Origin: Sphagnum magellanicum
Taxonomy: Eukaryota > Streptophyta > Sphagnopsida > Sphagnales > Sphagnaceae
Assembly: GCA_021904315.1 (NCBI GenBank)
Contig: CM038911.1
Span: forward strand, 16,527,390 to 16,591,389
Direction: 5' to 3'
DNA length: 64,000 nucleotides
The translations under genes were made by a program, and so were the position numbers. Each line of letters begins with the position of its first letter. Positions within the stretch are counted from its first letter, which is position 1. The notes under the pieces were generated by a model. The model was given only the letters and a program-made list of their open reading frames with translations. It did not search any database and was not told the DNA's origin. Shown piece after piece: positions 6,678 through 51,852 of this stretch.

Positions 6678-9649
6678 ATGGCGGATAAGTGGGACTTTCA
6701 GCGCATTCGAAGGTTTATGGACGAGCAGGCTGCTATGCCTGCTTCTTCGGTTTTATACATGAATGCCCCCGATTTAATTCGGCAACTACCGGCAGGGCCT
6801 CTCGGGACCTACAGTACTATGCCGTCTCAAGTAGCTGCGACGAATTCTAGACTCAAGGCGCCTGCTGCTGCTGCTGCAGTGGAACTCCAACAAAGTCCGT
6901 CGAAGAACAGATCATTAGAGGTGCCTGCTGCAGATCAGTCGAAGTTAATGTTTCAGCAAACTGGTCGCTCGCCGACGTTCACGGAGCCGGTGGTTCAGGC
7001 ATCATCGTGTGTGGAGGAGATTCGACATGATCTGCAGCAGGACGTTGCCACAATTCCAGCTAAGCATGCAGTGAAAAGATACAAGATGTCTTCGTCTGCA
7101 GAGAAGCCGTTTCATCAGCAAACTGTTGCCACAGTTCTCAGGGAGGCTGATCAAGCTCATGGCAATCCATCGAAAAGATCGGGGAAGGCTGTTTATAGGA
7201 AGCAGTTGCAGCAGCTGCAAACTGATCACGAAGAACCAGACTTAGAGTTGCGCCTTGGGAACGGCCACCTGCATAATGTTGACGTGCAAGGGAGGACCTT
7301 CCTGTATTCTAGAGCTAAGGAACTGCAACTCCAGCGAGCTGCTGCAGCATCTGCATACCCTATAAGCTGCCACATCCCTGTCGAAGTCCCGCGGCGAAGT
7401 CCCAATGAATTTCGATACCGCGTGGAGTCTCGCGGTAGCGTGCTGCAGCAGGTTACATCGGCTTTTTCCAGATCGGCAGCAGCTGCGCCTCCTCCGATCA
7501 TTGGATCAACAAGCACCGCCATGCTGCCGGTATCCTCTAGAGCTGCTGTGCAACAACATCCCCGACTGGCCGAGCTGCAGCAGGTTACATCAGCTTTTTC
7601 CAAACCGGCAGCAGCTGTGCCTCCTCCGATCATTAGATCAACAAGCACCGCCATGCTGCCGGTATCCTCTAGAGCTGCTGTGCAACAACATCCCCGACTG
7701 GCCGAGCTGCAGCAGGTTACATCAACTTTTTCCAGACCGGCAGCAGCCGCGCCTCCTCCGATCATTGGATCAACAAGCACCGCCATGCTGCCGGTATCCT
7801 CTAGAGCTGCTGTGCAACAACATCCCCGACTGGCCGAGCCGAATCACGGCACGGTGCAGCTGGAGGTTTTGAAGGATGGCGGAAGAGCAGCGGCTCTGCG
7901 ATCATACAGGCAGCAATTGATCATGACCCGATCTGCATCATCATCAGAGATGCCCATCGTGTTGCCGCCCGTGCTCGGGCCCTACACTACTACTGAATCT
8001 TACAAGGGTTCACCTCATCATAACTGTAGTCCAGCGACCACCACCATCAGCAACGCGATGATCATCCGTCATCCTGCAAGTGTGATCATGGGCACGATGG
8101 GTCCTCCTCCTCCTCCTCCTCCTACTCCATTGATGATGATGAGTTCGATGGGTCCTCCTCCTCTCCCTGAGATATTGGGTCCTACAGCAGCTCAGGCACA
8201 GCCGTCAGTAATATCGATTCCCTTTCCTCAAGGCCTACCGGCATTACCATCTTCGCCATGTCGCGATGTGTTTTTATGTAAGTACTACGTTCACTTCCTT
8301 CTCCTAGAGCTCTTGCAGCTTTTCATGAGTCATCCGATTCCAACAGCTGCTCTTGGACTTTATATTCCCCTATCTTTTCATGTAGTAATGATTCAGGCCG
8401 GGATGTATGTGGTCATGAGTTTTGTACTTGTCTCGAATATGTGAATTTCCAGGATTTTCAATTGGACAATTTGGCAGATGGGGAATTATAGGTCATCACA
8501 TACTGTGCATTACATGCATGCATGCAGTCCATCAAGAACTCTGTAAAATTTACATAAGAAATCATGAATATTAATTTCAGCTTTGTATCTTACTAACTAC
8601 ATAACAATTGGTATAATTTGTTAAAAATTGAGCTTATGTGGCTAATTCTGTATCGGATTGATTTTTGTGTACATGATGATCTACTGCTGCCTGCAGCAGC
8701 AGCTGCTCCTCCTCACTCAGGTCAGCAGGAGGAAGTTGCAAACCGCGCTGCACTAGTGCAGATCCCCGGCCGGTCGAGGAATTCTCCAGCCGTAGCTGCT
8801 GCTGCTGCTGCCACAGTAATGGTAGGCAAAGTTCCAGATTTTTCGGTTACCCTAACCAAGTTTGCTGTGGATTGCAAGTTTTCCGTGGATTGGAGTGATG
8901 CGGAAAATCATAATCAGCAGCAGCAGGTGCAGCTTGTGAGTAGAATATAATACTCTCTTCCTCATCATCATCACAATTTTTTTTTTTTGTTTGATGCAAA
9001 TTCTATCACGTAATTTGCATGTTCAAAGAGATTATTCAACTCTGCAGTGCTTCATCATATATAATTGTCTGACCCTATAACACTAGATATGATGGATACA
9101 TTCTACAATTTAAGTGATTAAACTCCAAGAGATCAGCTTTGATCATCAGTTATTATAATCAGTTTGTATAATGTCACTATTTTATTAAAACTGTAAATTG
9201 ATTTCAAGTAATTCAAATTTATTCTACAACTTTATTGATTTCTTTCTATTTTTTTCATTTTTTTTCCTTTCTTTTTCCCTTCAATGTTTTACTGGAATCA
9301 ATAAAGTGTGTGTTTTTTTCAGGTGCTTCCTGAGGTCATTAGCAAGCACCTGCCAAAAGAAGCTGTTCCATTGATTTTAAGAGCAAAACTGGCAGTTGAT
9401 GGACATAACCACTCAGCTTCTTCTTCTTCACAGTCCGATGTTGGTGCTGGTGCTCTTGCACAGCATCATGAGCTGTTAGACTGGCCAGTAACCTGGAGAC
9501 CTACAGCAGGGACATCGAGCATTTGTGATGGGTGGTCTCAGTTTGTGAAGGATGGTAAGTTGGAAGTTGGTGATTTCTGCAGGTTCCACCAGAGTGCCCT
9601 TGACAGGAATCTCTTCGAAGTTCAAATCATTAGACCCATCAAACTGTGA
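6678..9649 (+). CDS. B3-domain transcription factor, REM-like, with EAR motif (three exons)
   Basis: Exons 6678-8277, 8697-8935 and 9323-9649 join in frame with GT-AG borders (donors GTAAGT and GTGAGT) to give 721 residues. I start at ATG 6678 because it sits in a strong plant context (AACAACAATGGC); an in-frame ATG at 6588 would add 30 residues. The first 575 or so residues are low-complexity, with Ala, Pro and Gln runs and three 44-residue tandem repeats (256-387). LELRL at 189-193 in an acidic setting fits the LxLxL EAR repression motif. The B3 DNA-binding domain runs from about 580 to the C-terminus: FSVTLTKFAVD, LPEVISKHLP, WPVTWRP, GWSQFVKDGKLEVGDFCRF. It is split across exons 2 and 3 and carries an insertion rich in Ser, Gln and His. 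One C-terminal B3 domain without an auxin-response or VP1 module suggests a REM-like protein, so a nuclear DNA-binding regulator, probably a repressor. A possible poly(A) signal lies at about 9923. Confidence 0.85.
7443..7838 (+). repeat. Three in-frame 132 bp tandem repeats in the B3 gene
   Basis: The unit begins CTGCAGCAGGTTACATC at 7443, 7575 and 7707, exactly 132 bp apart, encoding 44 residues that start LQQVTSAFS and include PPPIIGSTSTAMLPVSSRAA. The copies differ at only a few bases, so the expansion is recent or kept uniform by conversion. The reading frame is preserved throughout. Confidence 0.95.
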
Positions 9650-19620: not shown

Positions 19621-19984
19621 GCTTGCAACAACAAGAGAATTTTCTTTGCTTCCATTCCCCAGTGCTGTGAAATGAAGCACCATTGCCTTCCTCTTGCTGC
19701 TTGCTTGCTTCTTTTTGGTCTACAACAAAACCCACAATCCCCTGCTCGTTTGCTTGCTTTCTTCTTCTGGGTCTAAAACAAACCCCACAAAAATTCCAGT
19801 ATTAAAAATCAAAAACCTAAAAGAAAAGCCCAAAAGCAAAGGCTTGAAAAACAAGCAGTGTGATCAAGCTTTAGGATTTGAGAGAAAAATGTGCAACAAG
19901 AAGAGACTACCAGATTGCTGCTTTCTTCCTGACTGCTGATGCTGCTACAGCAAAGGAGATAGAAGACGTATGGCAAACAGTCTT
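19621..19984 (+). repeat. Left copy of host sequence flanking the foreign island
   Basis: This 364 bp segment recurs in the same orientation at 22635-22997. By eye the copies differ at roughly eight positions, including one single-base length difference. The left border of the repeat follows host sequence ending TGTCCTTCCA. The right border falls at TCTT, immediately before the GC-rich island. It behaves like a very long target duplication created when the island was inserted. Confidence 0.9.
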
Positions 19985-20172
19985 CCGTACCCGCCATCGC
20001 GACGTGGCATAGCTAAGCGCTCTTACCGTGCAGATACGAGACGACGCATTTCCGTGGATGTCTGCAGCTTTCAGCACTTGCCAATATAGGCTTGCATATA
20101 CGAGGTGGCGTTCGCTCCCGGGTCGTGCACTGCCTGGGTGGCATCACGCCATCTGATCGCCAATCAAACAAT

Positions 20173-20280
20173 AGGATCGACCCACGTTGTCGCCAAGACG
20201 TCACGTCAGGCGTCATGGGATCGCGCCATCGCAGGATCGACCCATACGCGCAGGACACGTCATCATCATCAGACATCCAA
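20173..20280 (+). promoter_or_regulatory. Repeated upstream module in the island (AGGATCGACCCA plus ACGTCA)
   Basis: AGGATCGACCCA occurs at 20173-20184 and again exactly 60 bp later at 20233-20244. Each copy is followed by an ACGTCA-type half site (GACGTCACGTCA, then ACACGTCATC), resembling CRE/ATF-type sites. It lies about 700 bp upstream of the GDPD start. A tandem promoter module is plausible; its function is not shown. Confidence 0.35.
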
Positions 20281-20875
20281 TGTTTCAGGCTGGGCGCATT
20301 ACGACGATCATTCACCCAACTTCAGCGATCTCCACCCCTTCCCTGCTGGCTCACCGCCATTTGGGTGGCGTCGTTCGGGACGAAGGTTGAGCCGAGATTG
20401 CAGGATGCGCCAAAGAAGTGGCACACCCCTACGGATAGATCGGCTTTTAGATGGGGTTAGCCCGTATATGCGCTTATGCGTAAACCGCGAAAAATCGGGT
20501 CATCACTGCATCCCTCGCCAATCTTCCCTCGAATAGGAAGGTGCCACGTCCACGCCAACTCTCGTTTTGTAGTGTGGAAACATGACTACTATCCTAGCGC
20601 AGAAGGAGAGATATGGCCGCTCCATCGACAGCAGCTGAGCCCAGCGCACACTTCCTGCTCACAAAGGTAGCACCTCCCTCTCTGTCCTTTGTTCAATAAG
20701 AACCAAAATACAGATCCATTCTAATACCCTCTGTCAAAACTGTTTGTGTTTTTTGATTGCGCAGTTCTACCCACGTTTTAGAGAATATCGCTGCGTCGCG
20801 AGGAGCTTACAGCACTCCTGTCACCTAACACGTACGTCCATCGCGAGATAACTGCTGTTATCACAACAACCTTGC

Positions 20876-20937
20876 GTAAGTCGTCAATCCCTACCTTCTG
20901 CGGCTCACACTGACCTTACGAGACACGCTTCCGCCAG
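20876..20937 (+). other. Fungal-type intron in the GDPD 5' leader
   Basis: GTAAGT at the 5' end, CTGAC at 20910-20914 and CAG at 20935-20937 define a 62-base intron ending one base before the ATG. Short length, GTAAGT, a CTRAC branch site and a CAG acceptor are the usual profile of introns in filamentous ascomycetes. Plant introns nearby are longer and T-rich. A second possible leader intron, 20667-20764 (GTAGCA to GCAG, with CTAAT inside), is weaker. Confidence 0.55.
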
Positions 20938-20938
20938 G

Positions 20939-22240
20939 ATGGATGCCCCGCAAAATGAGGTCAATGTTCTAAAGCCTCGATCTGTTCACCAGCACCCCAA
21001 TACCCCATGGCGAAAGGTCAAAACTCCGCTCGGCTCGCTTGAGGACGCCGTCAAAATGTTTGGCGCCGTGACCCTTGAAAACTGGACTAAAGGACATAAA
21101 GGCATCATCGGCCATCGCGGCTATCCTCACACTAGTGAAGACGGCAAGATCTTCCCCGAAAGTACGGAAGGGGCATTCGTTTTGTCCATCAATGTGGGAA
21201 TAGGGACAATGGAAACTGACGCGGCTCCAATCGATCAAGACGAGGAAGTACGCCTTTTCCATGACCTAACAGGAAAGCGCTGGACCGAGCAAGATGCCCC
21301 GGTCGAACGAATGGACTTCTCCCGCCCCGTCCCATACGTCTTGCGCCGGAACGATCTCAAAGCCGGGACCCTTGGCGAGATCGTAATAACTTCCGATCAA
21401 TTCGTTCTCACGCTGAAGGATCTAGTGAGGATAGGCAAGAAAGCGCAAGAGGACGCGCGGGACCGGGGTCAAGATCTGACAGTCAGATGGTTGATCGATT
21501 GTCGCAATACCTCTGCCCCCTTCACCATCCGAGACGTTATGCGCCTTACGAAGTCAGAAAGGAACTTTTTCTATATCCAGCTTCTTAACTTTGGGATTAA
21601 GGGCTATCAGGATCTCAGCGGCCAGGTCGCCCATCTCTCCGTCGCTGAGGGTTGGGAGGACCTGAAGTATGTACTCAGCCCAAACTTCGACGGATTGCAC
21701 ATTGTCGCGGGTGTCGCGCAAATTGATCTTTCGCCGGACAAGCATCTGGAAGCCAATAAGATGTGGGTTGAGGATCTTGCCAACAACTTGAATGTGTATG
21801 GTCTCCACGCTCCCAGGACTGGTGCTGCTGATGATTGGGAAAATGGCGGCGGTCCGTTCGATGTAACCACCCTTTCGGTGGAGGACCTTCTTCCTTATCA
21901 TAAGGACCGCATCACCAAGGGACTGCAGGATCATTGGAGGGTTATTAAACCATCTCTTCCGCTTATTTCTCCATCTGCTGTGCCGACTATCACTAAAGAT
22001 GGAAAACACTATGTTTCCACGTGGGCCGATCCCACGATACTCAAGGAGCTTGACCCAGATCACTCGCCAAAGGACTATTACGGCCTGCAACTGAGCGATG
22101 CTGCGAAACACGTTATCAAGTGGCATGCTGATTTCGTGCTTACGGATCACATTCCACAGACGGCATACGATCTGTCATTCCATGTCGCCGATCTTGGAAT
22201 GACTGAGTATTACAAGTCTCTCATTGAGCCATCCTACTGA
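20939..22240 (+). CDS. Glycerophosphodiester phosphodiesterase-family protein, probably of fungal origin
   Basis: A single uninterrupted ORF of 433 residues. The N-terminal third carries the GDPD TIM-barrel signature: HRG at 59-61, PEST at 73-76 in the place of PENT, METD at 91-94 providing the acidic metal ligands, and FHD at 107-109 with the second catalytic His. This family hydrolyses glycerophosphodiesters to glycerol 3-phosphate and an alcohol; the exact substrate here is unknown. No signal peptide or membrane segment is seen, so a soluble intracellular enzyme is likely. The start is ATG 20939, since the frame is closed by a stop further up without another ATG. Codon choice is rich in GCC, ATC and CTC, unlike the host genes. 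All key residues are present and there are no stops, so the gene is either recent or maintained. It runs in the same direction as the GRAS gene 1.8 kb downstream. Confidence 0.8.
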   Translation: MDAPQNEVNVLKPRSVHQHPNTPWRKVKTPLGSLEDAVKMFGAVTLENWTKGHKGIIGHRGYPHTSEDGKIFPESTEGAFVLSINVGIGTMETDAAPIDQDEEVRLFHDLTGKRWTEQDAPVERMDFSRPVPYVLRRNDLKAGTLGEIVITSDQFVLTLKDLVRIGKKAQEDARDRGQDLTVRWLIDCRNTSAPFTIRDVMRLTKSERNFFYIQLLNFGIKGYQDLSGQVAHLSVAEGWEDLKYVLSPNFDGLHIVAGVAQIDLSPDKHLEANKMWVEDLANNLNVYGLHAPRTGAADDWENGGGPFDVTTLSVEDLLPYHKDRITKGLQDHWRVIKPSLPLISPSAVPTITKDGKHYVSTWADPTILKELDPDHSPKDYYGLQLSDAAKHVIKWHADFVLTDHIPQTAYDLSFHVADLGMTEYYKSLIEPSY

Positions 22241-22634
22241 TTTTCTTCCGTTGGCGACTTTTTTCAACGACACTCCCAGCTCTATTGACGTTTTGGTATT
22301 TTTGAAATTTTGCAATTTGTCTTGAACAGACTTGTCGCGGCATGCGTGCTCTAGCATAGCTGAGCGTCGCGGTATTCAACACCGCTAGGTTACTTCTCGT
22401 GCTTATATATTATAAAATGGAATCAATTTAAGCGCGCTGCATACCCTGCCTCACCGTCTTCTTCCTGCTCTAAGTTCTATCACATTATTATAGACAACTA
22501 TAGACAGTTGATCCGCGCCGGGCCGTTAAGCGCACTGTCGGGTGATCACCAATCGTTCTTCTTCATCCCGTCGCTCCTTCGAATGTACCCGGCTCCGGGT
22601 TGCGTGCAGGGCAAGGGCTAATGTGACGTAATCT
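22241..22634 (+). other. 3' flank of the GDPD gene within the island
   Basis: Non-coding by inspection. It includes a TATATATTATAAAATGG stretch at about 22405-22421 that could serve 3' end formation or be the start of a neighbouring promoter, then more GC-rich sequence up to the abrupt return to host DNA at 22635. No partial second gene was recognised. Confidence 0.4.
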
Positions 22635-22997
22635 GCTTGCAACAACAAGAGAATTTTCTTTGCTTCCATTCCCCAGTGCTGTGAAATGAAGCACCATTGC
22701 CTTCCTCTTGCTGCTTGCTTGCTTCTTTTTGGTCTACAACAAAATCCACAATCCCCTGCTCGTTTGCTTGCTTTCTTCTTCTGGGTCTAAAACAAACCCC
22801 ACAAAAATTCCAGTATTAAAAATCAAATACCTAAAAGAAAAGCCCAAAAGAAAAGGCTTGAAAAACAAGCAGTGTGATCAAGCTTTAGGGTTTGAGAGAA
22901 AATGTGCAACAAGAAGAGACTACCAGATTGCTGCTTTCTTCCTGACTGCTGATGCTGCTACAGCTAAGGAGATAGAAGACGTATGGCAAGCAATCTT
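22635..22997 (+). repeat. Right copy of host sequence flanking the foreign island
   Basis: Direct repeat of 19621-19984, about 98% identical by eye. From here host sequence continues without a break into the long leader region of the GRAS gene, so this copy is probably the one in its original setting on the right side. Confidence 0.9.
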
Positions 22998-24059
22998 GCT
23001 GCTGCTGCTGCTTGGTCGATCCTTCCTTTGCAGAATCGCTATTGACTTTTGTATGAAAGAAAGAAAGAAAGAAAGAAAGAGAAAACAAATCAACAAAAGA
23101 TTAGCCGCAATTAGCACATGTCTCATTGAGAGGCAGTGTGTCCCTTCCATGTGTGTTGACATCTACGGAGCTGTGAGAAATATTTGAAAAGCTGCTTTTT
23201 GTGAAGAAGAAGGAAAGAAGCAGCATCTCCTCTTCTTATTCATCGTCACCAGCACACTGTTGTTGTTGTTGTTGTTGTTCCCTCATCATCATTGCACTCC
23301 ACCCAGAAGCTTTGCTTGCTACGTCTCCTTCACACCTAACAAGCTCTCAAGCTGAGCTGAGCTGAGCTGAGCTTGTTTCTTTTGCCTTGGGTGTCCGTCA
23401 GATCAAGTGTAGAAGCTCCTTTCTGTCTGTGTTTTCAGGAGACTCAATTAGGGTTTGAGGGTGTGTCTTTGTGTGTGTTTGTGTGGTAGTTTTAGAAGAA
23501 CAAGTGCTGGGGAAGTGCAAAAAGGGTAGTTCGGTTTGTTTTTTGTTTTGGGTTTTCCTTTTCTTTTCTTGTCCGTGGAGAAGGATGCATAGAAGTTGCA
23601 ATTAGCGCTGAGAGAGATCTGGAGAGGAGGAAGGAAACACGGCGGTGGTGGTGGGTGAAAGACAGTTGCATTGAAGGAAACAAAAGTTTGTTTCAAAAGG
23701 CGCAGCAAGCAGTGGAGAGGCGAAGAAGAAGAAGAAGAGAAGCGAGGAGGAAGGAGAAGAAGCAGAAGCTAGAGCAAGGAAGGAGAGGGAAAGCTTTTTC
23801 ATGGTGTATGTAAGTCACGTTTCCAAAGAAGAAATTCTCAGGAAGCAAGCGGTCGGAGCAGCAGCAGTAGATTTGGAGGAGGAATAGTTCGAAGATTGAT
23901 GTTCTGAGAGGGAGCAGCGAAGAAAAGAGGAGAGAAGAGGAAGAATCGTCAGCATCATCATCATCACAAGCTTAGCGTCGATCCTTAGAGAGATTTGGCA
24001 AACAAAAGGAGGAGGAAAACAAAATCTGGAATGTCAGCAAGCTTGAAACTGTGGAGAAG
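22998..24059 (+). promoter_or_regulatory. Upstream and leader region of the GRAS gene
   Basis: Purine- and CT-rich sequence with several short microsatellites: GAAA at about 23056-23078, TTG from about 23261, GAGCT repeats at about 23350 and GAA at about 23726. No clear TATA box was picked. The last part is probably transcribed leader because it contains several upstream ATGs and a possible leader-intron donor (TATGTAAGT at about 23807). Confidence 0.4.
23801..23887 (+). promoter_or_regulatory. Possible upstream ORF in the GRAS leader
   Basis: ATG 23801 opens a 28-codon frame (MVYVSHVSKEEILRK...) closed by TAG at 23885. A three-codon uORF follows near 23899, and a further ATG at 24031 opens a short frame overlapping the main start. 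If these lie in the mature leader they would reduce translation of the main frame. The GTAAGT inside this uORF could instead be a splice donor that removes the rest. Confidence 0.3.
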
Positions 24060-27000
24060 ATGCGCTCAACAATAGGAAGAGGAGGAGTGACAGAGACAAC
24101 AGCAAAAGAGAAACTGCACAAGGATCCACAGCTGCAAATGGCATTGACAAACAAGCAGAGAAATTTTGTGGCAACAGGAGGAGGAAGTGAATCTTCACCA
24201 TTAGCAGCAAAGCTCCAACAAGCATGGTTGCAATCACAGTTGCCTAGGGTACAGGATAGTACTCCATATCCCTCATCCATTGATGCTGAAAGTCGAGATT
24301 TTGATGCTGAAGCTCGAGCTTTTAACCAGACAAGCAGAGAGCCTCTGACGACAAAGACGACGACGCCAACAACATCATCGCTATCATCATCATCAATAGC
24401 AGCAAAGCTCCAACAAGCATGGTTGCAATCACGGTTGCCTAGGGTACAGGATAGTACTCCATATCCCTCATCCATTGATGCTGAAAGTCAAGATTTTGAT
24501 GCTGAAGCTCGAGCTTTTAACCAGACAAGCAGAGAGCCTCTGACGACAAAGACGACGATGCCAACAACATCATCGCTATCATCATCATCAATAGCAGCAA
24601 AGCTCCAACAAGCATGGTTGCAAGCACGGTTGCCTAGGGTACAGGATAGTACTCCATATCCCTCATCCATTGATGCTGAAAGTCAAGATTTTGATGCTGA
24701 AGCTCGAGCTTTTAACCAGACAAGCAAAGAGCCTCTGACGACAAAGACAACGTCACCAACAACATCATCACCATCATCATCATCAAAGACAATGCCAACA
24801 AAATTTACAAAACCAACACCACTAACATCAATGCAGACATCATTGTTGTCACATCGTCATAAGAGTTCTTGTGGTGCTCCACCGCCAACCCTCCATTCCT
24901 TCTCCACCCACGATGCCAACTTGAACAACCATATGTCATTCCTTTTGGGAGATTTGAACTCTCCAACCGGAGGGCCGGAATCTCTAGCATTCCTTGATGA
25001 GATGCTCATGGAGGAGGAAGATATCAACACAGAGCAATTTTATATGAACAAAGAAAGCATGGGCTACAATGAGATGCAAGTAACATTCCTTGATGAAATG
25101 CTCATGGAGGAAGATGATATGAATGGCAGCAAGCCATGTATGTACCAAGAAAGCAATGCATACCAAGCAGTGGAGAAGGGCTTTGCCGATCTCATCGCCA
25201 AAGGTTCTCCATCAACTAGTACTACTGGATCAAGCTACTACAGCTTTGTAAACAGCAGGGAAGAGGGGGCAGCAGCACGGGGTGCACAAACAGAGTGTAA
25301 TAATGTGGGGTGCAATCAATCTCTCGACTTTAACCAGTTGTCAGAAAAATTTAATGTAGATGAGATGCTTTATGATTATACAGACCTTCTGTGTCGGCAT
25401 CTTAAACAAATGGGCCTCGAGTCATCTACAAACAGCTCTAGCAATAGCAGCAACAGCCATGCAAGCCACACAGATGTCCTTGTGCGTGAAGCTCATAACC
25501 CTACAACCATTTACAACAACCGGAGTCAAGAAAGTTCAAGCACTGGGGTGGGCATGAATCTTCCACAAGGAACTAACATTGGTGTGACACAACACAATGT
25601 CAAGTTTGCATTTGATAGTGGCGATGAGCATGACTTGACAAATTTGCTTATCATGTAAGAGAACAACACCTGCCCATACAAGCATGATTTCAATATTGGA
25701 ATTGTTGATGGACAAGGTCATGCATATAGTGCTGGATCTGAGGTGAGAGAGAGAAGTAATATCCTCAATTTTCTTTCCTCTAATTGCAGATGTGCAGAAG
25801 CAGTGAAGCAAAATGATGTGAGGAAGGCTAGTAGAATCATTGCAGAGCTTCGTGCTCTTACATCACCATCTGGAACTGGTGCACAACGCATGGCTCATTA
25901 CTTCACAGATGCATTGGTAAGATTTTTGCCTTGCTTATGCACTTTGCTTTGCTTTTCTTGCAAATCTCTAATGGACATTGTGAGGTTGGGTGTTCAGTGT
26001 TGGAGGTGAAATACATTCTAGTTTGTCACTTGCATTCCTACACTTTTTTTTTTTTAAATCTATTTTTGCTGAATGCCTTTTGGATGAATTGAATATTCTA
26101 GGTTGCTAAAATGTCTGGAACTGGTGCACAACTCTCTGCTGCAGTTCGCGACAATGCCCCTTCACCTGCTACATTGTTGCGAGCCTATAAGTCACTTGTG
26201 CTACATGCTCCATACTGGACACTTGCCCATTTCAGTACCACTGTTGCGATCCTGAATGCTTTCAAAGGAGCAACCCAAGTGCATTTGGTTGACTATGGCA
26301 TCGGTTATGGTAGCCCATGGCTGAGTCTCATTCAAGAACTTGCAAGCAGACCAGGAGGTGCACCCAATCTTCGAATCACAGGTGCTTGGGTTGTCTCTTG
26401 TCAACTTCTCCTATTTCTTTTGTGAATATCTCTACGGTACAAATCAGAGTTCATGATCGTAATTCATTGTTCTGTTATTATCAAAGTGTTGGGTTGTAGT
26501 GATTTCTTTGCAATCTCTTAAATCTTTAAAACAACTTTTAGAACAGTTTCTCATGATGACTTCTGTGAGATTTCAGGAATAGAGAGAGCACATGGCATAA
26601 AGTACAAGCCATCAGAACTCCTAAGACGATGTGGTCAAAGGCTTTCAGAGTTTGCAAAGACATGTGAAGTGCCATTTCAATACTCGGCAATTGGCGCCGA
26701 TGAGTGGGAGAATATAACAGCAACCCAACTCGCTCTAAGGCCTGATGAAGTGCTCGTAGTGAATACAACTTACAGATTCTCTTGCCTTTTGGATGAATCT
26801 GTTATGGTAATAAATCCTCGCCAAATGTTACTGAACAAGATCCGAAGCATGAATCCAAAGGTAAATGCCAATCACCAAAAGGCTAAATTTACATGGATCT
26901 TGCTATGTTATTGTCCTCTAAGTTGAAACACTTGTTCAAATCATGTAGTTTTCTTTTGGAAATGGTTGTTGGTTTCTTTTGCTTCAACACATCTTCTATG

Positions 27001-27513
27001 AGCTCGATGGGCTCTACCTCATAATTACACATGTCATCAACAATGTCCCACTTTCTACATACATTTCATTAGTGTTTTATTTGAATTCTGCAGGTTTTTG
27101 TAACGGTGGTGGCAAACGCAAGTTTGAATGAGCCTTTCTTTATGTCTCGTGTTCGTGAAACCATCAAGTATTATTCGGTACAGTTTGATACACTTGATGT
27201 AATAATGCCCCCCTATCTTAAGGAAAGATTATTAACAGAGCGGGAGGTTTATGGTCGAGAGATCCTAAACATTATTGCTTGTGAGGGTCTTGAAAGAGTG
27301 GAGCGACCTGAGTCCTATAAGCAATGGCATAGTCGCATTCAACGAGCTGGCTTTGTACAAAAGCCACTACAATTATCTGAGATCAATACAATCAAGTCCA
27401 TACTTTGCTCGTATGACAAACGCTTTGGCATTGGACAAGATGGTGGTTGGTTTCTTTCAGGATGGAGGAATCAAGTCATGAATGCATTCTCAATCTGGGA
27501 GCCAATCTCCTGA
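24060..27513 (+). CDS. GRAS transcription regulator, LISCL (SCL9/14/33-like) branch, five exons
   Basis: Exons 24060-25654, 25790-25916, 26102-26381, 26577-26860 and 27094-27513 all have GT-AG borders and join in frame to 901 residues. The start is the first ATG of the long frame. The N-terminal half has three 65-residue tandem repeats (49-243) and then two copies of the acidic LISCL motif (FLDEMLMEE), followed by a segment ending QAVEKGF that is typical of this branch. The GRAS domain starts at about 524: DLTNLLIICAEAV (leucine heptad I), VHLVDYGIGYG at 634-644 (VHIID), EREVYGREILNIIACEG at about 811-827 (PFYRE), then RVERPESYKQW and a C-terminal SAW region with WFLSGW and IWEP. LISCL proteins act in the nucleus as transcriptional co-regulators; Arabidopsis SCL14 works with TGA factors in stress and detoxification responses. 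Introns within the GRAS domain are unusual for the flowering-plant members. The foreign GDPD island lies upstream. Confidence 0.9.
24204..24788 (+). repeat. Three in-frame 195 bp tandem repeats in GRAS exon 1
   Basis: The unit begins GCAGCAAAGCTCCAACAAGC at 24204, 24399 and 24594, exactly 195 bp apart. Each encodes 65 residues: AAKLQQAWLQ, LPRVQDSTPYPSSIDAES, FDAEARAFNQTS, then a Thr/Ser-rich tail. Copies differ at only a few bases and the frame is intact. Confidence 0.95.
24985..25125 (+). repeat. Duplicated acidic LISCL motif in GRAS exon 1
   Basis: TTCCTTGATGA followed by ATGCTCATGGAGGA occurs at about 24990 and again 96 bp (32 codons) later at about 25086, encoding FLDEMLMEE twice. LISCL proteins known to me carry one such conserved acidic segment before the Ala-Glu motif; here it is doubled. 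Confidence 0.7.
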
Positions 27514-30501: not shown

Positions 30502-33500
30502 CCTCCAAGGTAGATGCAAGATATAATGACTTTTCTTTCTTTTTTTAATGTTCATTTCCATACAAGTCTTATTTATAATGTTAAACTTGTAATTTAATGT
30601 GACTTATGGACTATGACTTTTCAAAAAGTAATGAAGTTTGTATTAATGAAAACCCAAGTGAAGATATGTATCTTTGGAAAAACACTTTGAAATTGGGGGA
30701 AAATAAAATTTTAAGGAATTATGAAAATATGGCTCAATTATGGCCAATAAAAAGACCCTAATTATAATTTAGTTATGATTTTTGAAGGAAAAAATTCACA
30801 TAATTTTGTATAATTGCATGTTACATCACATATTGGATCATTATAAATAATTTGAAATGAAATTCAATATGAATCTTTCAATTTTTTACCATTCCAATCA
30901 ATCAACCAATCCATATATTTTTATATTGAAAATTCACTATTAAAAGTGGGTGTTTTATTTTTAAATAATTACACCAAGTTATTAATTTATAAATAATTAC
31001 CATTTGACAATTTTAGTTCTCACTATAGGTGTTCAATGAAAGGCCGGCACTTTGCAAAACTCAGTACTAGAGTCCAAAAATGAGCCACCATATCTTGCAT
31101 TTACTTTCCATAATAACTCTCAAATCCACCACCAGAACCACAATCACATGTTCTTCCATAATGGCCAACAAATTCACCATCTATGCATTTCATGTTATAA
31201 GCGCCTTTGCAATGGCCTACAAGTTCACCATCCATGACACATTGTGACCAAACAACAGGTCACCCTAATAGTGTGAACACAACAAATTTTTAGGGTTTTG
31301 TTTTTTTGTTTTACTGTTTTCATTAGCTGTCACCTTTTGCATTCTTGTGACAGGAACATGTCCATCACTACTGCAAGGAATGCATGGGTAGGCTATTCTA
31401 TTTGTTTGTGTGTTGTGGAGGACAGGAGTTGTGTTGTGCGATGGATGGTGGAGGAAGTGATTGCATTGAAAAAGGTTTCCGGAATGGACGGAAGAAGGTA
31501 AGCATAAAAGGTAATATGAAGGAGAAAGGAGGCGGGGTTCTTTCTAGTATGTAATTTTCTGGTTGTTGTATCTCTCAAACTACTTAGCTAGTTGTTGATG
31601 ACCTCCGCTACGCCAATGACTTAGCAGAGTAATTGTGTAGATCATTGTAGGAATAGATATGAGGGGTTGATGCCGAGGAATGATGAGAACTAAGGATGCC
31701 GAGGAATGATGAAGAACTGAGGGGTCCGAGCCATAGAACTAAGAGGCATATAGAAGACAAAGAGCATCTAGGGATGGGAGTTTGTGTTGCAATTTTTTAG
31801 ATCTATGTTGTAGGCAACTGACAGAGTGAGTGCCAAAAACCTCAAGGGGTATCCTTAGGGTGGGTAGAATGAGTAAACCAAATCAAGAGTGAAAAAGAAA
31901 CTTGAAAAGAAAAATCTATCGTGCATTCTTGCATAAGAGTCTATCCCATTGAATGGCTCTAGATGAGCGTAGTACCTACTGCTCAAAGTCAGCAACATTT
32001 AGATTCAAAGGTCTCTAAGTTTTTAGGTTTTCATAGAAGAGGAGTGGAGATATACTGCATTGTTGCATTCAGTGGGGAATTGGTTAGCGGTTCAAATGGA
32101 TCGAATGAACCTTGAGAGTTCTAACCTCAAAGGCCATACCTTGATAGAATCTTGATTATTGATGATATGCATTGGAATTGGGTAGCTAATGATTCATAGC
32201 CACTTAAGTGGATGTATGCTAGAAATTCAAACATCTGTAATAAGTCTACCAATTAGAATCTACAAGAGTTGGATATGCTAAAACCAGTGAATGTCAGTAG
32301 AAGTCATCTTTGATATTGGTACAACAAAATTCAATAAGTGTTATTTTATGTAAGGCGCTAGAGATTCCAATTCTGTTTAAACCTATTGTATGTTGTTAGG
32401 TTCGTTTTTTTTTATCTTCCACTTTCCTTTTGGTTACAACACAACTACAAATTATGTTTTTTATAAGAATGACCAACAACAAACAATCCAACAACCCCAA
32501 CATGTCTAGTCAAAATCCACTCAATATATATAATAGGTAAGGATTCTAGTATGGTATCAATTAGAGATGCCTATACCTAATTAGATAACTAAGATGTCTC
32601 ATTTGGGGTTTGTTCTAAGTAGGTTAAAATAAGGGCCCAATGTCAAGCCTTAAACAAGGTAATGAAAAGGCTAGGGGTTGAAATTATAGTAGTAAGGGTG
32701 TTCAACCTATACTGCATTATAACAAAAGATGGGATACATGTTGGTGGGGGGTGGAATAGTTGGTTAATTACCTTTTAAGGCTACACCTTGAAATTTAGTC
32801 CATCAATTGATGATATTTGGAAGCAATCAACTAAGGAATTAGAAATAGGGAAAAATAATTTTTATAGAGATGCAATTTGAATACCTTTGTCACCCACTTG
32901 GTTACAAATATATCCAAGGTCAATTTGCCATTGTATTCAAAGATAAATAACCCAATGGTTGGAAAAAAAATTAAAATTAAAAATGAGAAATGACCACACA
33001 ATTACTAAAAATCACATCGGAATATATTGAAAGATTTTTTTAGGAAGGAAGAAAATGTTGAAAAGGCATTTTGCATGACAAAACTTTGAGTAGCTCAAAA
33101 GAACGCAAGTCAAGTTGGATGACATAGCAATTTATCAAATTAGAGAAAATAAATAAATAAAATTTGATTTTGACTTCTAACCCTAAATTATATGTTATTT
33201 TTTCATTTATTCATCTAAATGGTGGATCTTTATATTGTACATGATGTGGATCATTGGGGCTTTGAGGGGTTGAATTAGTGGAAGAGCACCCACCTTGATA
33301 GAGATCCAAAAAAAAATCAAGAGAAAAAACAAATTGCAAATATGGATGAAATGAGGTTAGAACAAAAAATTTACCCCATTGGGTGAAAGCATAATCAAAT
33401 ATACATTTCGTGATCTTTGTCAAGAAAAATTTAAAATAATCATAAATTAAACCTTAACATATTAAATCTATAAATATCATTTAATTCAATGATCAATATG

Positions 33501-36500
33501 AAAAAAAAATTGAATTTATGTTAATGATATTGAAGACTCACATGTTTAAAATATATTAAAATAATTTTTTTAAATGCTAGTAGAATTTGTTTTCCATTGC
33601 ATGTTGTTATGAGAAACAAAATAGGCTTCAAGTAGATAACATATTTGATTTTATTTGATTTTATTTTTTGGTTAATACCCATCTAAAATTTACCATAACA
33701 CTTTCAACTTCCAAGGTAAAAGTAATAGTATATCAATCTTTTAATGTAAAAGTAGTTTTGAACACAATTCCACCAATCAATTTCAAAAATATTTTTGGCC
33801 TACTTTTAATACACTAATTTTTCTCAAACTTTGTATACAACATACTATAAACTCAATATTTAGCACCATGATGGTTTGACAATGATTGGAATTTTTAAAC
33901 TTTACTTTGTTGCATTTATGCATAAAAATATGACTACAACTATTTGGAGCCTTTTTTGTGTATATTTGATTGTGCTTTCACTCCATTATTATGTGTTAAT
34001 TTGTTAATGCAAAGGATTGTAATTTCATGCCCATGACCCGTTGTTGACTTGGTTAATTAGTTTGGCATTTGCTTTTATTGATTGTCATGAACTCATGTAT
34101 ATAGTTATGCATTGTGTGTTCACATCAAGTTGCACATTCCCCCTTTTGATTCAAAGGTTTAAATCCCTTGAACCAATTTCAATCAAAATCAATTTTTTTT
34201 GGAGTCTTTAAACATTTGTATATAAGATAAATGTATTATAATCAATGATAAACAATGTTTCATGGGTCACATTGTTCAAGCACATTGTCAGTTTGGATTA
34301 TTCTTGATTCAAAGCATTTATGGTTTAAAATTAAGTTCAAGAAGAATTTTTAAGACTAACATTCAAAGTTTTTGTCTTCAAGATTTAAATTTCATCTACG
34401 TTTATTTGGCCTTTTGGTAAGTATTCTCTCCCCTTAATTTGGTGATTATTTTTATGTTGCCAAGGTTGATATATTTGTTATAACGTCTTAAATGTACATA
34501 ATCTTAACCCTTGCAACCTATTATTCTAATAGGTTTAAGTTATTTTGTTCATAATGTTGCTTAGAAATGTGTCTTACTACTTTTTCATTAATTGTGGTAT
34601 GTTTCACAAGAAGGTAATGCAACCATGGAATTAAATCATTATGAATAGTAGTGGGTTTGCATTATCATTTGAGCTCAAGATTTGACTCAAGGCAATGAAA
34701 AACAACCATGAATGGATTATTAAGGCCAATGAAGACTTGAAATCCATGCAATATAAATGGGTGAAAAGACAAGAATACATGTCAACCATGAATACATGGA
34801 CCATATATTGGCCTTCATGAAATCATTTGTCCCCTTCCTATGCTTGGCAATCCATCTAAATCTAGGAAAGGGAAAAAACAACCTATGTAGCCAAAACAAA
34901 GAATGATGAAAGTATGGGAGTGGTAAGCTAGCATGTTAAATCGAAGTGTAAAAGCACAATGGTAGTTTTTGAATAGTTAGCTTGAACACATAAAAGCTCA
35001 TGCATTTTTTAACGTTCATTTTATTTCTAACTACACAAATAATTTGTGCAATGAACCAATTGAACCTCATAAATGGAGGGATGTATTTTAACATCGTCAG
35101 TATGCATAACACAATAATAAAATTAATGAATGGGATGTAATTGTGTTTCTTTCAATTACAAAATTTGTTACCACAAGTGACACAGTTGGACAAAAGGAAA
35201 TGGCTTCGTATCGGACATGATGTAGACCACATGTAATGGGTGATGTTTAATGATTCATGTGAGTTCAAACATTAAATTACATAATCACATGCATGTGGTT
35301 TAAAAGTAAGGGATGACAACAAAAAATTATTATTTTGAAATTTTCAATTATGACAATACAAATCATTTCAATTATGAAAGTACATAAAATGTGGTTACTA
35401 CCAAAAAGGTGGGTTTTTAATTATTATCAAACATATGAATTTTTGTTTGAAGCTTGCCTATAACACATTAGGTATGATATCTATTTAATTTTAGATGTCA
35501 ATGGGTTGTTATGTAATATGCAACATTTGAAGTTGAAAACCATTAATTTCCCTAATGAAATATGAAAAGGAGTTTGTAAGCCCATGACCAAATCTATTTT
35601 AAGTTTTGAAATTATGTTTTTCAAGATTTGATGTTGAGCTTTAGTTATCAACAACACAACCCAACATAACCTTAAACCCATGGTGAGATTCTTATTAGGT
35701 GATAGATTAGGGTTTAAATTAATGTTGTATGAAGCAATGAAAAATGTAAATTCCAAGTAATTTTGAAAGTTAAGTTTTTGAAAAACATGATTAAGGTGTT
35801 ATGTGATATCAACATAAGATTTAGGATCAATTAGGTCCAAACAATACATTGTTGATAAATGACTATCCTTATAAATGCATTGCTAATACACCATTTTCTT
35901 ACATATTACCCTTGTCATTTGATAGTAAAGTAAAGGACAACTACTTATTGGGTTATATTGTGGTCATACTTGGCAAGGACTATTAAAGGTTCCAAGTACT
36001 TTAAGGTGGGTGCAAACATGATAACACAAGCCATACCAACCCACATGACCTTATTGTGAAATTATTTTTGACACTTTTAAAAGTAATGTTAGTGCTTGTC
36101 AAGATGATATGGTAGATTCTAATTGGTTACAAAATGCAATGGTTTAGAAATCCATGAATTTCACAATGGCCAAGAATTTTTTTTTTTTTTGACATGACAT
36201 ATTATACTATTATGTAAGTATTTGAATAATTGTTATTGTACATGATTATATCATTTTGAAAGCATTACAAATCTTTAAAAAAATGGGAAAATTTAATGAA
36301 AGCACTAGTTACGATGTTTTATGTGTGTTTTTGAATATTTTATCTTCATTAGATCCATCCAAATTATTTCACGTGTTTTCATAATATATTAGAAAGGGCA
36401 TCATGTAAAAATATTTTAAACTTGCAATGTTAGTACAATTTTTTACACTAAAAACATTAAAAATCAGGTGTTAGTTACATTTGTTACAATATGTGTTAAC

Positions 36501-37469
36501 ATGACTACACTTGAATATGTAGTTACCAATTCACAGGGCTAGAACTGATTCACAAAGCAAGTCCCACATTGGAAAGTAGTAAAAGCTTATGATTGATTAT
36601 TTAAAACCCAAAACTTGAACATGATTTTGTTTCATAATTTTATTTTTTTGGATTGTTTCCATTATGGGGGGGTTCAAGCTTCATTTATTTCATTCAAATA
36701 ATTGATTTTAAAATTTTGTTTATATTTTCGATTATGTGATCATGAAGGGTGAGGTTTGAACACCCGACATTGGGTTTTTTTATTATCTCATGATTATTTA
36801 GTTGAATTTTACAATCATGACGAAACCATGAAAAAACGTTATCCTTTCCCCATGGTGGCACCTTATCCATTCTTTGTTGGAACCACACATTATAATGTAA
36901 ACTTCACCTTGACCACATCAAACATGTTTATCTTTTGAATTTCAACCATCAAACCTTGTGAAAAATATTTTGAATATTTTCTTATCATACCCATAGATGG
37001 TTAGGTTATGCTCACACTTGTCATAGAAATTCAAGTGTTTTGTAACACTATCGAGAAGGAGTGAACAAAAGAAAATCCTTAAAAAATTGGCAGGAATGTT
37101 GGCTGCAAAATTATTTGCCCACGTGCTTAAAGATGGTACCAACATTAATGATGAAGTTGAAGGATTGGAGGTCCAAAGTCTCAATTCACCATGAGACCAC
37201 AATTATGAAAGTGATTCAAGTGATGATGGGTTCATCAATCTTCCTATGTTATACATGGACATTTGAAACACAAAGGTACTTATGGGATAAAATTTAAATA
37301 CCAAGAAAAATTTTCAATTGATCATTCCAAAGTTGCCAAATGAGCAATTCAAATAAAAGATTATAATGTCTATTCCATGTTTTGAGATAATCTTATCTAA
37401 TTGATACAAACCCATTCCATTTTCCATAACTATATTGATCTGGAATAGGCATTAGTACTCTTATAATTT

Positions 37470-38270
37470 ATGGTTGCTACATGTAAATTCGGTTATTATG
37501 GTAATGAAGCATCCATAAAAGATATTTGTGATGTGTTTATAATATATGAATGTGCAATAAACTTGTTCACTAATCGATGCAATATTGTTACATTTTTGTT
37601 CATGGAGTATTAAACAATGAGACGGCTTACTATAGAAAAATGAATTAGAATGAGAACAAAAATTTGAAATTTTTTGGGTTTCTTTTAGTGGTGGGTAGTA
37701 TAGATGGAACCCTTATCCCTTTTGTAGCTAGGCCCATTAGGTATGGGGAAGACTATTACTCATGAAAAACAACTTACTTTACTTTAACAATGATTGTTTG
37801 TAATAAAAAGGGTAGAATATTGCTAGTTTTCTTGCATCTATTCATGATTTTCGAGTTTACACAATTTCAAAATTGAGGATGAATTTGAGGGATTTTTTGT
37901 GTGTGAAGAGGAACATCTATTAATTGAATTTACCTACCCTCTTCTGTTGATTTTCATTCAAGTTTATAAACAACTAGTAACCACACAACCTTTGAATGTG
38001 ATATTCAATACCCAACTAGCAAAACTCTGAGTTAAAATAGAGTATTCCATAGGTGTCTTGAAAGGATGTTTTCAAAACATAAGGGATCTACATATTCAAA
38101 TTGAAACCAAGCAAAACCATAATAAAACAATGTTGTGGACTACATAATCTTTTCATTGAAAATTTTATGATTCATCATGGAATTTTGGACAATCTAATGA
38201 AGATCCAAATGATGATGACTTTTTTCTTAAATTGGTTGGACAACAAAGTGATTCTATGTATATATGTCTC
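37470..38270 (+). pseudogene. PIF/Harbinger (HARBI1-type) transposase remnant, left arm
   Basis: The plus strand encodes pieces of the DDE nuclease of Harbinger elements: VGSIDGTLIPF with the first catalytic Asp at about 37690, RPIRYGEDYYS, a TMIVCNKKGRILLVF strand, then FNTQLAKLRVKIEYSIGVLKGCF and the terminal CCGLHNLFIENF at about 38140. Several in-frame stops interrupt it, so it is dead. The usual second SANT/Myb-like ORF was not firmly identified; minus-strand frames at 38560-39590 are in the right place for it but are also broken. Terminal inverted repeats were not found. Confidence 0.65.
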
Positions 38271-40329
38271 AAAAGATATGTGTTTTCTTTTCATGGAGAT
38301 ATATGAAGTATACACCATTCAATGTGAATATATCTTATGCATTTTCATTTTTTTTACTTATCTAATAAATGAACATGTGTTATCATTTTGTGCATGTTTT
38401 CTTTGGAAATATTTTCAACAAATTATGTGTCATTACACACTTATGAACGCAACCCACATCACACATATTATGCCATTGTTTAAAAGCATGGAGTAGTTGG
38501 ACGTTGAAAAAAGAAAAAAACACATTGTTGTTTTTTAATTAAAGGATTGAATGCTACATGAATGCCCATCACAAAAGAAAAACACACAAAGAGTAATGAT
38601 ATGGAATGCTAAACAAACCACTATTGACATCAAATTAAATACACCAACAATTTATGCACTTGGACCTCCACCTTGTGCCTTTAAACATGCAAGCTCCACT
38701 TGCAATTATAAATTGTGGTTCTCAACTTCCTTCATACAAATAACCAATTTTTCATGTTGCATTTTCATTGAGAAGTCAAGCTTTCAACTTTGGAGTTAAA
38801 AAAGTTTTATGTTGCCAATCATTTCTCAAATCTAACTTCTTTTCACCAATAACATGATTATCTTTGGCAACATTGATGAATGTTTTAATAAATGCAACAT
38901 GTCTTTAATTTTTTCCTTGATGATCCTTGGGCATTGCCTCATTTACCTATTTGTGGGGTTTATTTTCTTGAATTGTTGCAATTAGATGTGGTTTGTGTGC
39001 ACACAACAATGGGGTTTATGGGTGACAAACCTTCTCCTTCATGATTAATACCATCTTCATTGAAGTCAAGAGCATCCTTCTCATTCTCAAATGAATCATC
39101 CCACTATTCAAATACAAAATCACTTGCAACTTGTGTGTGTGTTTGTGCATGACTAAAGAATCCAAAAAAAAAGTCTTTTGCATCCACTCCATCCATTGAA
39201 TCACCCACAAATGGAGGGTTTGCCAATGTTTTATCCCCCATTAAAGGATCAATCTTGTCAAAAGAGGGACATAACATAAGTACCTTATTTCTAATGGAAT
39301 TAATACCCATCTTTTAGTCAATGGTGTCTAATCTTTCACCTGTGGTCCACAAGAAGTCAATCGCATCACGATTTTGTTTCTCTAAATGTGTAGTCTTATT
39401 TTTAACTTGATTAAAAGTGTGCTGGACTTCTTTTGTTCCTCAAACAAACACAATGGATTTGAAAATGTCTTTTTTTTTCTTCCCATTTGGCTTGGTGCAT
39501 CCATTCTCTTTCTTCTTTTCAACATTTTGCCATTAATCAAAATTATTGGGTGTCTCAAAGCAATGAAAAAGGAGGCTCATTAACCATTTGTCCCACTTTG
39601 TGCACAACACAACCCGTGCATCTTCTATGGTAGTTTCACCAAGCAATGAAGCTTCAGAGGGGATTAACTTTTGCAACTTTTGCTTTCCAAGAAGACCATG
39701 CATGGGCTTTATTTTGTTTCAAATCCTAGTTCCATCCGTGATTTTTACAAGAAGGTGTTAGTCATGCATTTCACAATGATCAAAATGACCTTGTAAGCAT
39801 TACTAAAATTGTTGGACACACAATTGTGTGGTTATAAAAAAAAAGTGTTTAATGTTGCATTTGTAAAACACTTTTCTCAATTCCAATGCAATTTGTTGAC
39901 CTTGATGCATAAAACATAGAAACACATTTTCATTTCAAAATGCAACAAATAGTTGGACTATTGCACAAAAATACAATTGCACAAAACTTCCTTGAAAATC
40001 AATGGGTGATCACTCACATTGTGTGAAATTTTCAAAAGAGATCAAAACTATAAGGGATGTTGAAAATGTAAGCTCCCAAGAGGCCTATTGATTTGTATTT
40101 AACAAATAATGTGTTCCCACCTTTTATGCTTTCAACCCTTATTTGTGATTTGGGGGAAGCAAAAGGGAAATTGTTCTTACTAGTTATTTCCAAGTTGACT
40201 TTAACAAGTTGTGCTTGCAATGTGTGCTTTTGTTACTTTCCAAAGAGGGTTTTGAAAAGTTGCACTTTGAAACATTGTGTTTGTGGTGTAACAAAAAGTT
40301 GTGTTTGCAAAAAAAAATTCCATATGTTT

Positions 40330-41560
40330 ACTATTTATTGTTTACAATTTTACATCCATTTGGGACCAGAGAGTCCATTAGACGAAAGGTAGATCATGGA
40401 GGACAGATTGTCCTCTGGTATTGGCAACATGCCACAAACTTGGCCAAGGCAACTATGTTCGTAGTCTGCATGAGCCCAGCAAGAGTGCTCGTGTGGGTGA
40501 GGGGTAGGGCCGAACAAAAGCGTTCCCTGACTTTCTATGTATTTGGATAGACAAGGAGCAAGTGCTTTTCATCCCTTACTTTTCCCAAGTCGCAGCCTCG
40601 ACAAAGCCTCTCTGCGTATGGCACGCCCTTCCACACACCTAACACTACCTCAAGCTACATGTTGTCACATCAAAACTAAGCTAGAGCTTTCCGTAGCTGA
40701 ACACAGCTGATGTCACACAAGTAGATTTCGTTCTCGTACAACATACCTTTGAAGTTCAAATATCTTGTTTGCACATTGGTCCTGATCTCACGATTGGTAA
40801 AGAGCTTTTCAATGAAAGCTAATCGCATATTATCTTTCACCCTTTTTACACTCAACATTGTGTGGGGAAAACCTAGAAAGGGTGGGGCCCCAGCCTCCTG
40901 GTTGATCGGGCGTCCCGTCATAGATCTAACACCAACCAACTGCACTAGTTGTAACGCAGCCAAGTTAGCCATTTGAGCTCCCACTCGTACATTGTACGCG
41001 TTGCACCAAAGTACTTAGCTCTTTGCCCAACCTTCCACCCCTACTAGACGGGTCGGATGTATGTGCGTTGTCCCAGAAACTGTTCCCAGTTGCGGTTGAA
41101 CAATCTTCGCTTGAAGTGCATGGGTCGTTGCAAGCTGAAGTGTTGTTTCCAGCAACAGTTGAACTAGAGGCAAAAAACCTGCCACCTCTTGGGGTTAATT
41201 CTTGAGTAACCATTTTTTCATGGATCCAGCCCAACATTTCTTCCCCACATCAAGCATAACGAACTGGGCTTCCCATGCCTTTCCCAAGATGCGATCTTTA
41301 GTGACCATGCTCACACGATTATAGTACAACAACGCTTGTCCCCATGCAAAGTGTTCAAAAGGGGTATTTGCCAAATTCTACCAGCATGATGGACGTGCTG
41401 GTTGTTTTTTGCACCCCGAGCAAGGACTTGAAAAACCCTAGGTACACTACTTGAATAGCCTATATTTTCTTGGAGTCCACCCAAACCTCACAGGCATAGC
41501 TTACTGTGGAACGCATCAACGTGTTGAAGACGTCACAACATAAGTCAAATTGTTGGCATA
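40330..41560 (-). pseudogene. LINE (non-LTR retrotransposon) 3' remnant, left arm
   Basis: Minus-strand frames match the end of a LINE ORF2 downstream of the reverse-transcriptase core: a YACEVWVDS segment, FLKSLLGVQKTTSTF, then KDRILGKA, a Ser/Thr-rich linker, and a CCHC-like zinc segment near the end. 5' truncated and interrupted by stops and frame changes. It is the mirror copy of 52880-54110. Confidence 0.6.
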
Positions 41561-41798
41561 TTGATTCATGTCCAAATCACTAATACTTCTTGTTTGCAAA
41601 AATAGGGTGATATGGAATAAGGATCATACAATAATTTTCTCATGTACATGCAAATAATCGTAACAATTGTTGCATCATTTTTCCAAGTTCACTGAAGATA
41701 TGCAAATGAAAGGCTTGCTTTATGGATGCAAGGTTCCAAAAGATTAAGACAAATTCCACTTGATAATGTGACCAAGGATATAGGGGCATTAACAAAAT

Positions 41799-41920
41799 GA
41801 AGAATCTTGATTTTGAATTCTCTTGGCTCCTACCTCAACCTTGAGCAAACTCCTCATGGAAGAATCTTGATTTTGAATTCTTTTGGCTCCTACCTCGACC
41901 TTGAGCAAACACCTCATTAA
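41799..41920. repeat. 60 bp direct duplication near the inner end of the left arm
   Basis: A 60 bp unit starting GAAGAATCTTGATTTTGAAT at 41799 is repeated at 41859 with a few differences. The same doubled unit is present in the right arm (about 52512-52633), so it existed before the arms were copied. Just beyond it lies an AAAT tetranucleotide run (about 41965-41987). Confidence 0.75.
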
Positions 41921-42000
41921 TGCCACCATTCAATGGCCTTAACCTCACACATAAAGAATTAGGCAAAATAAATAAATAAATAAATACAATTTATAGCAGC

Positions 42001-51812: not shown

Positions 51813-51852
51813 GGCCAAAGCAGCGATCAGCGAGCTCAACGTGATGAGCAAG

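Follow-up and report, generated by a model that had tools for sequence, protein, structure and literature searches.

Transfers of genes from fungi to plants are known from about 20 well-supported cases, with more recent ones particularly in the grass family, according to a review that describes their mechanisms in plants as poorly understood (PMC12448838). The closest described systems are nuclear transfers from fungi to grasses, namely LpBGNL, which encodes a beta-1,6-glucanase (PMC5567365), and LpFTRL and LpDUF3632 (PMC7670438). According to these two reports, each is a single fungal gene residing in plant nuclear DNA, LpBGNL and LpDUF3632 retain an intron where the donor has one and none is predicted in LpFTRL, and the authors interpret the events as transformation-like uptake of DNA (PMC5567365, PMC7670438). 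No similarity was found for the sequence flanking the LpBGNL coding region (PMC5567365), and the grass contigs that carry LpFTRL and LpDUF3632 have no predicted flanking gene from the donor (PMC7670438). Here we describe a candidate transfer in a 64,000-nucleotide stretch of the moss Sphagnum magellanicum (contig CM038911.1, positions 16,527,390 to 16,591,389; hereafter the window), in which a discrete 2650-base-pair (bp) insert of foreign composition carries an intact 433-codon open reading frame (ORF) of the GDPD superfamily and is flanked by two copies of the same host sequence. This locus differs from the grass cases in its gene family, and it still retains about 1.35 kb of non-coding DNA of foreign make-up together with a duplication of host sequence that can be read at each edge.

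Two further systems offer useful points of comparison. A transfer from Epichloe to Thinopyrum gives resistance to Fusarium head blight, as listed in Table 1 of the review (PMC12448838). Like the locus considered here, it would represent a fungal gene moved to a plant, although in that instance, unlike in ours, both the donor and the effect are known. We take the gene in question to be Fhb7, presumably a glutathione S-transferase. The second comparison is with insertions made during break repair in plant lines transformed with transfer DNA (T-DNA), which include filler DNA and target site duplications, with one line having captured 652 bp of plastid DNA (PMC8348815). Those insertions resemble ours in being devoid of transposon ends, in being accompanied by target duplications and in drawing filler DNA from unrelated sources (PMC8348815). 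Our locus departs from them in having an entire gene of foreign appearance as its filler and a duplication that is 364 bp long. Vaughn and Bennetzen (2014) reportedly also treat plant break-repair insertions. Other transferred genes are named in reports on a model fern (PMC9477723) and on Marchantia (PMC12890914), and the term GDPD has no occurrence in the main text of the Marchantia report or of the review (PMC12448838). Among the papers listed by our literature searches, we noticed no report of a plant GDPD gene of fungal origin, which is no proof of absence.

The elements of the insert and its borders are as follows, with CpG given as the ratio of observed to expected dinucleotides.

19621 to 19984, plus strand: host direct repeat, left copy (presumed target duplication), 97.8% identical to 22635 to 22997, CpG ratio 0.13
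19985 to 22634, plus strand: foreign insert, 2650 bp, G+C content (GC) 0.517, CpG ratio 1.07
19985 to 20938, plus strand: foreign 5' non-coding region (putative donor promoter and leader), 954 bp, GC 0.536, CpG ratio 1.10
20876 to 20937, plus strand: putative leader intron recognized by its sequence signals, 62 nucleotides, GTAAGT donor, CTGAC branch site, CAG acceptor
20939 to 22240, plus strand: intact 433-codon ORF assigned to the GDPD superfamily, with H59-R60-G61, PEST at residues 73 to 76, E92-x-D94 and H108-D109
22241 to 22634, plus strand: foreign 3' flank of the ORF, 394 bp, GC 0.472, CpG ratio 1.32
22635 to 22997, plus strand: host direct repeat, right copy, from blastn and alignment against the left copy, CpG ratio 0.13

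An initial annotation, made from the letters of this DNA, had pointed to a 2.65-kb block rich in GC and CpG that is enclosed by a duplicated 364-bp stretch of host DNA whose copies have drifted by about 2%, and both statements are borne out. Over 364 alignment columns, the two copies exhibit 356 matches, 7 substitutions and a single indel, which is located inside a run of A residues. Outside the insert, the window has a GC of 0.356 and a CpG ratio of 0.32, compared with 0.517 and 1.07 inside, and 189 CpG dinucleotides fall within the insert versus 611 elsewhere. When the window is segmented on CpG alone, the maximum-scoring segment spans 19967 to 22627, only 18 and 7 bp from the edges defined by the repeat. 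The rates for this first segmentation were taken from the repeat-defined block itself; when the procedure was redone with four other rate settings, the same segment was recovered in three and 19967 to 22603 in the fourth, with scores of 209 to 257 for the top segment and 67 to 110 for the runner-up (5.4 to 8.3 kb). Segmentation with an order-2 model trained on the core of the block is less sharp, returning 19903 to 24754 and thus overrunning the right edge (477 bits versus 315 for the runner-up). The repeat and the CpG content therefore place the insert edges at nearly identical positions, and what we observe is a block of foreign composition set with sharp edges into host DNA. As a separate observation, the window has two occurrences of the pattern GCATAGCT-R-AGCG, and both lie in the insert: 20007 to 20019 is close to the left end, and 22354 to 22366 is some 270 bp from the right end. 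This may be a matter of chance. No tRNA or Rfam matches are found across the window.

The ORF is considerably longer than expected from composition, as the longest ATG-initiated frame in 1000 simulations with the dinucleotide make-up of the block has 295 amino acids. Its HRG, E-x-D and HD catalytic motifs appear in the order expected of the GDPD superfamily. To compare the ORF with members of this group, we used a profile built from four PF03009 matches on one Rhizobium megaplasmid, which scores the ORF at 15.0 bits, whereas shuffled ORFs reach at most 4.4 (2000 given, 902 with a reported score). With hhalign, residues 55 to 191 align with a score of 36.1 (P 2.7e-4, probability 41.5%), and 60 shuffles yield at most 20.0 and 0.8%. 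Residues F80, E92, D94, H108 and D109 are invariant in the alignment of five sequences that combines the ORF with the four Rhizobium domains; E92-x-D94 and H108-D109 are aligned in all four Rhizobium stretches, and H59-R-G is common to three, the fourth stretch being one that does not include that part. As a control on the profile, the four-domain alignment retrieves 32 distinct solved sequences, of which 22 bear the name glycerophosphodiester phosphodiesterase and 3 the name GP-PDE domain protein. A search of NCBIfam gives only two matches to the ORF, both weak, to GDPD (expectation value (E) 0.0027) and to lysophosphatidylglycerol phospholipase D (E 0.013), entries that we presume to be members of one superfamily. 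The PHROGs search of the ORF returned nothing, and the PDB sequence search returned six sequences at chance level (best E 0.18), with no GDPD among them.

Bacterial GDPD enzymes of solved structure (3ks5 and 2pz0, reached via the Rhizobium profile) share with the ORF the motif order HRG, PE-x-T-like, E-x-D and HD, as seen against the Rhizobium proteins. They differ in length, with about 250 amino acids compared to 433 here, and the ORF is 16 to 24% identical to the four Rhizobium domains. On its motifs and profile scores, the ORF belongs to the GDPD, or phospholipase C (PLC)-like phosphodiesterase, superfamily, though it falls outside the curated Pfam family by cut-off, and it probably represents a distinct branch. 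The family call of the initial annotation consequently stands at the superfamily level (by profile, hhalign and NCBIfam, with Pfam giving no match), and the two catalytic-type histidines that it named are H59 and H108. Judged by eye, D187 may be the third metal ligand and TDHIP near residue 400 may form the last strand of the barrel, both at positions that are unaligned in the comparisons. The motifs predict that the product, if expressed, would be a metal-dependent phosphodiesterase with a PLC-like TIM-barrel fold, for which glycerophosphodiesters or lysophospholipids are the predicted substrates.

The region directly before the ATG bears on the origin of the gene. Short introns with a GTRAGT donor, a CTRAC branch site and a YAG acceptor follow the consensus of filamentous fungi, and the 62 nucleotides at 20876 to 20937, which end one base upstream of the ATG, conform to this consensus with GTAAGT, CTGAC and CAG. 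The fungal-style leader intron claimed at the outset is therefore recognizable in the sequence. At least one such match on the same strand is found in 27 of 1000 simulated blocks, the mean being 0.002 per 330 bp (2000 simulations), and across the entire window there are two on the plus strand (20876 to 20937 included) and one on the minus strand. A looser pattern allows an alternative donor at 20832 with the same acceptor, giving 106 nucleotides. By these signals, the element would presumably be spliced from the leader. Codon use likewise sets the ORF apart from six host pieces: the GC at third codon positions (GC3) is 0.566 versus 0.344 to 0.489, and the fractions are 0.79 versus 0.30 for TTC, 0.07 versus 0.41 for GCA and 0.11 versus 0.53 for ACA. 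A filamentous fungus is a plausible donor and the best reading of the gene anatomy. Of the earlier proposal of such a donor, the intron signature is supported, and composition and codon choice set the insert apart from the host.

How the DNA arrived can be read in part from the ends of the insert. Comparison of the 150 bp at each end reveals no repeats above chance: the direct alignment scores 8 and the inverted one 7, and 300 null pairs have a median of 7, a 95% point of 9 and a maximum of 11. Insertion of a transposon was considered and rejected, as the insert has neither terminal repeats above chance nor mobile-element ends, and the duplication is 364 bp rather than short. An mRNA retrocopy was rejected as well, since the insert retains the intron-like element as well as 954 bp of foreign DNA ahead of the ORF and there is no poly(A) at the right junction. 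The want of both end repeats and a poly(A) tract thus argues against these two routes. Moreover, because the non-coding parts are foreign too, the insert looks like a fragment of DNA and not like a retrocopy, and the unspliced intron and flanks point to arrival as DNA rather than as a reverse-transcribed message. Upstream of the ORF, three open frames in the foreign DNA have no Pfam match up to E 1.

Taken together, these observations lead us to favor, as a probable explanation, the capture of a 2.65-kb genomic fragment from a filamentous (ascomycete-like) fungus during repair of a break in a land-plant chromosome, at a site that precedes a GRAS gene by about 1.4 kb. A break in the chromosome of the land plant would have been repaired with a foreign genomic fragment taken up as filler. 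This fragment would comprise an entire gene of the donor: the GDPD-superfamily ORF, some 0.95 kb that precedes it and includes the leader intron, and some 0.4 kb that follows it. Before the event there would have been a single 364-bp host segment, and staggered ends filled in during end joining, or template switching, may have left this host sequence on both sides, so that it now flanks the foreign DNA. The sequence itself shows the insert with its bounds, the host duplication, the intact frame, the superfamily and the surrounding host DNA, and from these we infer the donor kingdom, the splicing, the repair mechanism, the substrate and the recency of the insertion. The more complete proposition, that this is a recent fungus-to-plant transfer with an intact integration scar, in which a whole donor gene with its promoter, leader intron and 3' flank entered before a GRAS regulator when a break was repaired and 364 bp of the target were duplicated, is one that we advance tentatively, as a close call that leans slightly toward doubt. 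If it is real, the readable edges, target duplication, donor promoter and intron would make the entry of foreign DNA into a plant chromosome directly testable. If true, the scar would directly show the capture of bare fungal genomic DNA in a plant germ line, and the two flank copies would permit dating.

Several points weigh against capture of a fungal fragment during break repair. First, the fungal donor is read from the anatomy of the gene; the GC3 of 0.566 is not extreme, and for CAA, AAC and AAG the codon use resembles that of the host. Second, Pfam searches with the complete ORF and with two sub-ranges of it return no family up to E 10 (PF03009 included, at its gathering cut-off), and the two NCBIfam matches score 17.1 and 14.8 bits, far under the curated cut-offs of 264 and 450; a fold model from the single sequence has a mean predicted local distance difference test score of 31.3, too low for use. 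Third, raised CpG is also present in a host region at 5.9 to 8.3 kb. Fourth, the donor sequence is missing, and junction microhomology is unreadable as a result. Finally, both junctions are known from the assembled sequence, and a direct repeat with copies 2% apart at both edges is also the expected look of two unmerged heterozygous contig ends.

This last point leads to an assembly artefact, in which a contaminant contig from an endophytic or surface fungus would have been placed between two host contig ends, unmerged and sharing a 364-bp overlap, that derive from haplotypes 2% apart. Overlapping ends that failed to merge would yield exactly such a direct repeat, and contaminant DNA would be expected to show undecayed CpG and an intact frame, as the block does. 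However, the artefact needs two false joins made without gap characters, of which the window contains none (0 N), and the contaminant contig would have to contain one whole gene by chance. We therefore judge an artefact to be unlikely, while granting it real weight; if it is a contaminant, the locus would serve as a clear example of heterozygous contig overlap mimicking a target duplication.

A real insertion from another eukaryotic donor, such as an oomycete, another protist or an arthropod, is a reading that we regard as improbable. GDPD-type enzymes are widespread, PF03009 is matched in 11 of 14 control genomes (all of them prokaryotes), and the donor is placed by no tree. Nevertheless, GTAAGT, CTGAC and CAG within 62 nucleotides directly before the ATG make up an intron of fungal type, and TCATTY, the oomycete-type start motif, is not found within 300 bp of the ATG. 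Our searches for relatives covered viral, prokaryotic, phage and plasmid sequences. Pattern scans, two for each collection, fit 3 and 4 stretches in viral contigs and 38 and 77 stretches in contigs of prokaryote genomes, and tblastn confirmed none of these at E 1e-3 or below; such scans start from exact 8-residue patterns and for this reason reach close relatives only. A tblastn search of phages and plasmids gave nothing below E 1, and up to E 10 it gave 8 plasmid records (E 2 to 8) and 9 phage records (E 1 to 5). A GDPD annotation lies under the match in 3 of these 17 records (one plasmid and two phage records of one phage), and in one further record the matched stretch is PF03009. The remaining records are unannotated there or carry other proteins; among these, a single pair of phage genes accounts for six near-identical matches.

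A native or anciently acquired plant gene, duplicated along with its flank in a locally GC-rich region, is very improbable, for although host DNA in the window reaches a GC of 0.51 and a CpG ratio of 0.73 over 2640 bp (from 5.8 kb), the non-coding parts of the insert are as foreign as the ORF, the insert edges nearly coincide with the host repeat, and an old resident would be expected to exhibit the same loss of CpG as the host.

The two repeat copies give some indication of age. The 7 substitutions over 364 columns correspond to about 1% per copy, and at this flank divergence (half per copy) the ORF would be expected to have acquired 12.5 substitutions and 0.44 nonsense changes. The probability that a neutral frame would still be intact is then 0.64, or 0.20 if indels are included at the flank rate. 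Given this range, the intact frame says little on selection, and reading it as a sign of selection was rejected as weak; the earlier suggestion that the intact frame marks a maintained transfer is accordingly not supported. The CpG content of the insert is undepleted while that of the host is depleted, which fits a young insertion, an unmethylated insertion or a contaminant.

A host gene lies downstream of the insert.

24060 to 27513, plus strand: host GRAS-family gene, with an N-terminal open frame at 24060 to 25658 (first ATG at 24060) and GRAS domain pieces at 26102 to 27510

The GRAS domain is found in three pieces, all above the cut-off (E 2.4e-22, 8.3e-19 and 2.2e-33), and the order and strand of these pieces and the N-terminal frame suggest that they form one gene. 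The insert is upstream of it on the same strand: its end is about 1.4 kb from the first ATG (24060), and the end of the right repeat copy is about 1.06 kb from that ATG. Elsewhere in the window, a B3 match at 9305 to 9646 (E 1e-6, 29.0 bits) is just under its cut-off of 30.1, and a HAD match on the minus strand at 51237 to 51932 (E 0.0074) is weak and below cut-off. As the initial annotation had supposed, the surroundings are plant DNA, and we take the host for a land plant, judging by these three families, of which GRAS exceeds its cut-off and B3 and HAD do not.

Other features of the host DNA are recorded here. Between about 5.8 and 8.4 kb, GC and CpG are raised for this host, to the values over 2640 bp that are given above. 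Three 132-bp tandem repeats (94 to 96% identical to the first), whose unit is a multiple of three, occupy 7439 to 7846 within a 618-residue ORF that has no Pfam match and lies upstream of the B3 match. Likewise, the open frame that precedes the GRAS pieces contains three 195-bp tandem repeats at 24191 to 24786 (94 to 97% identical to the first), and this unit, also a multiple of three, gives a repeated unit of 65 residues.

The window also includes a large inverted repeat, with arms at 30502 to 42000 and 52432 to 64000 that blastn aligns as a single match of 11,629 bp with 93.6% identity, cut by the window end. Its spacer of about 10.4 kb contains the frame with the weak HAD match. The arms mirror each other about 47.25 kb, and if the arm extends outward, the mirror position of the insert locus would be near 71.9 to 74.5 kb. 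The arms have diverged by 6.4%, compared with 2.2% for the insert flanks; because the arms are the more diverged, an empty site with a single 364-bp copy is predicted near 71.9 to 74.5 kb.

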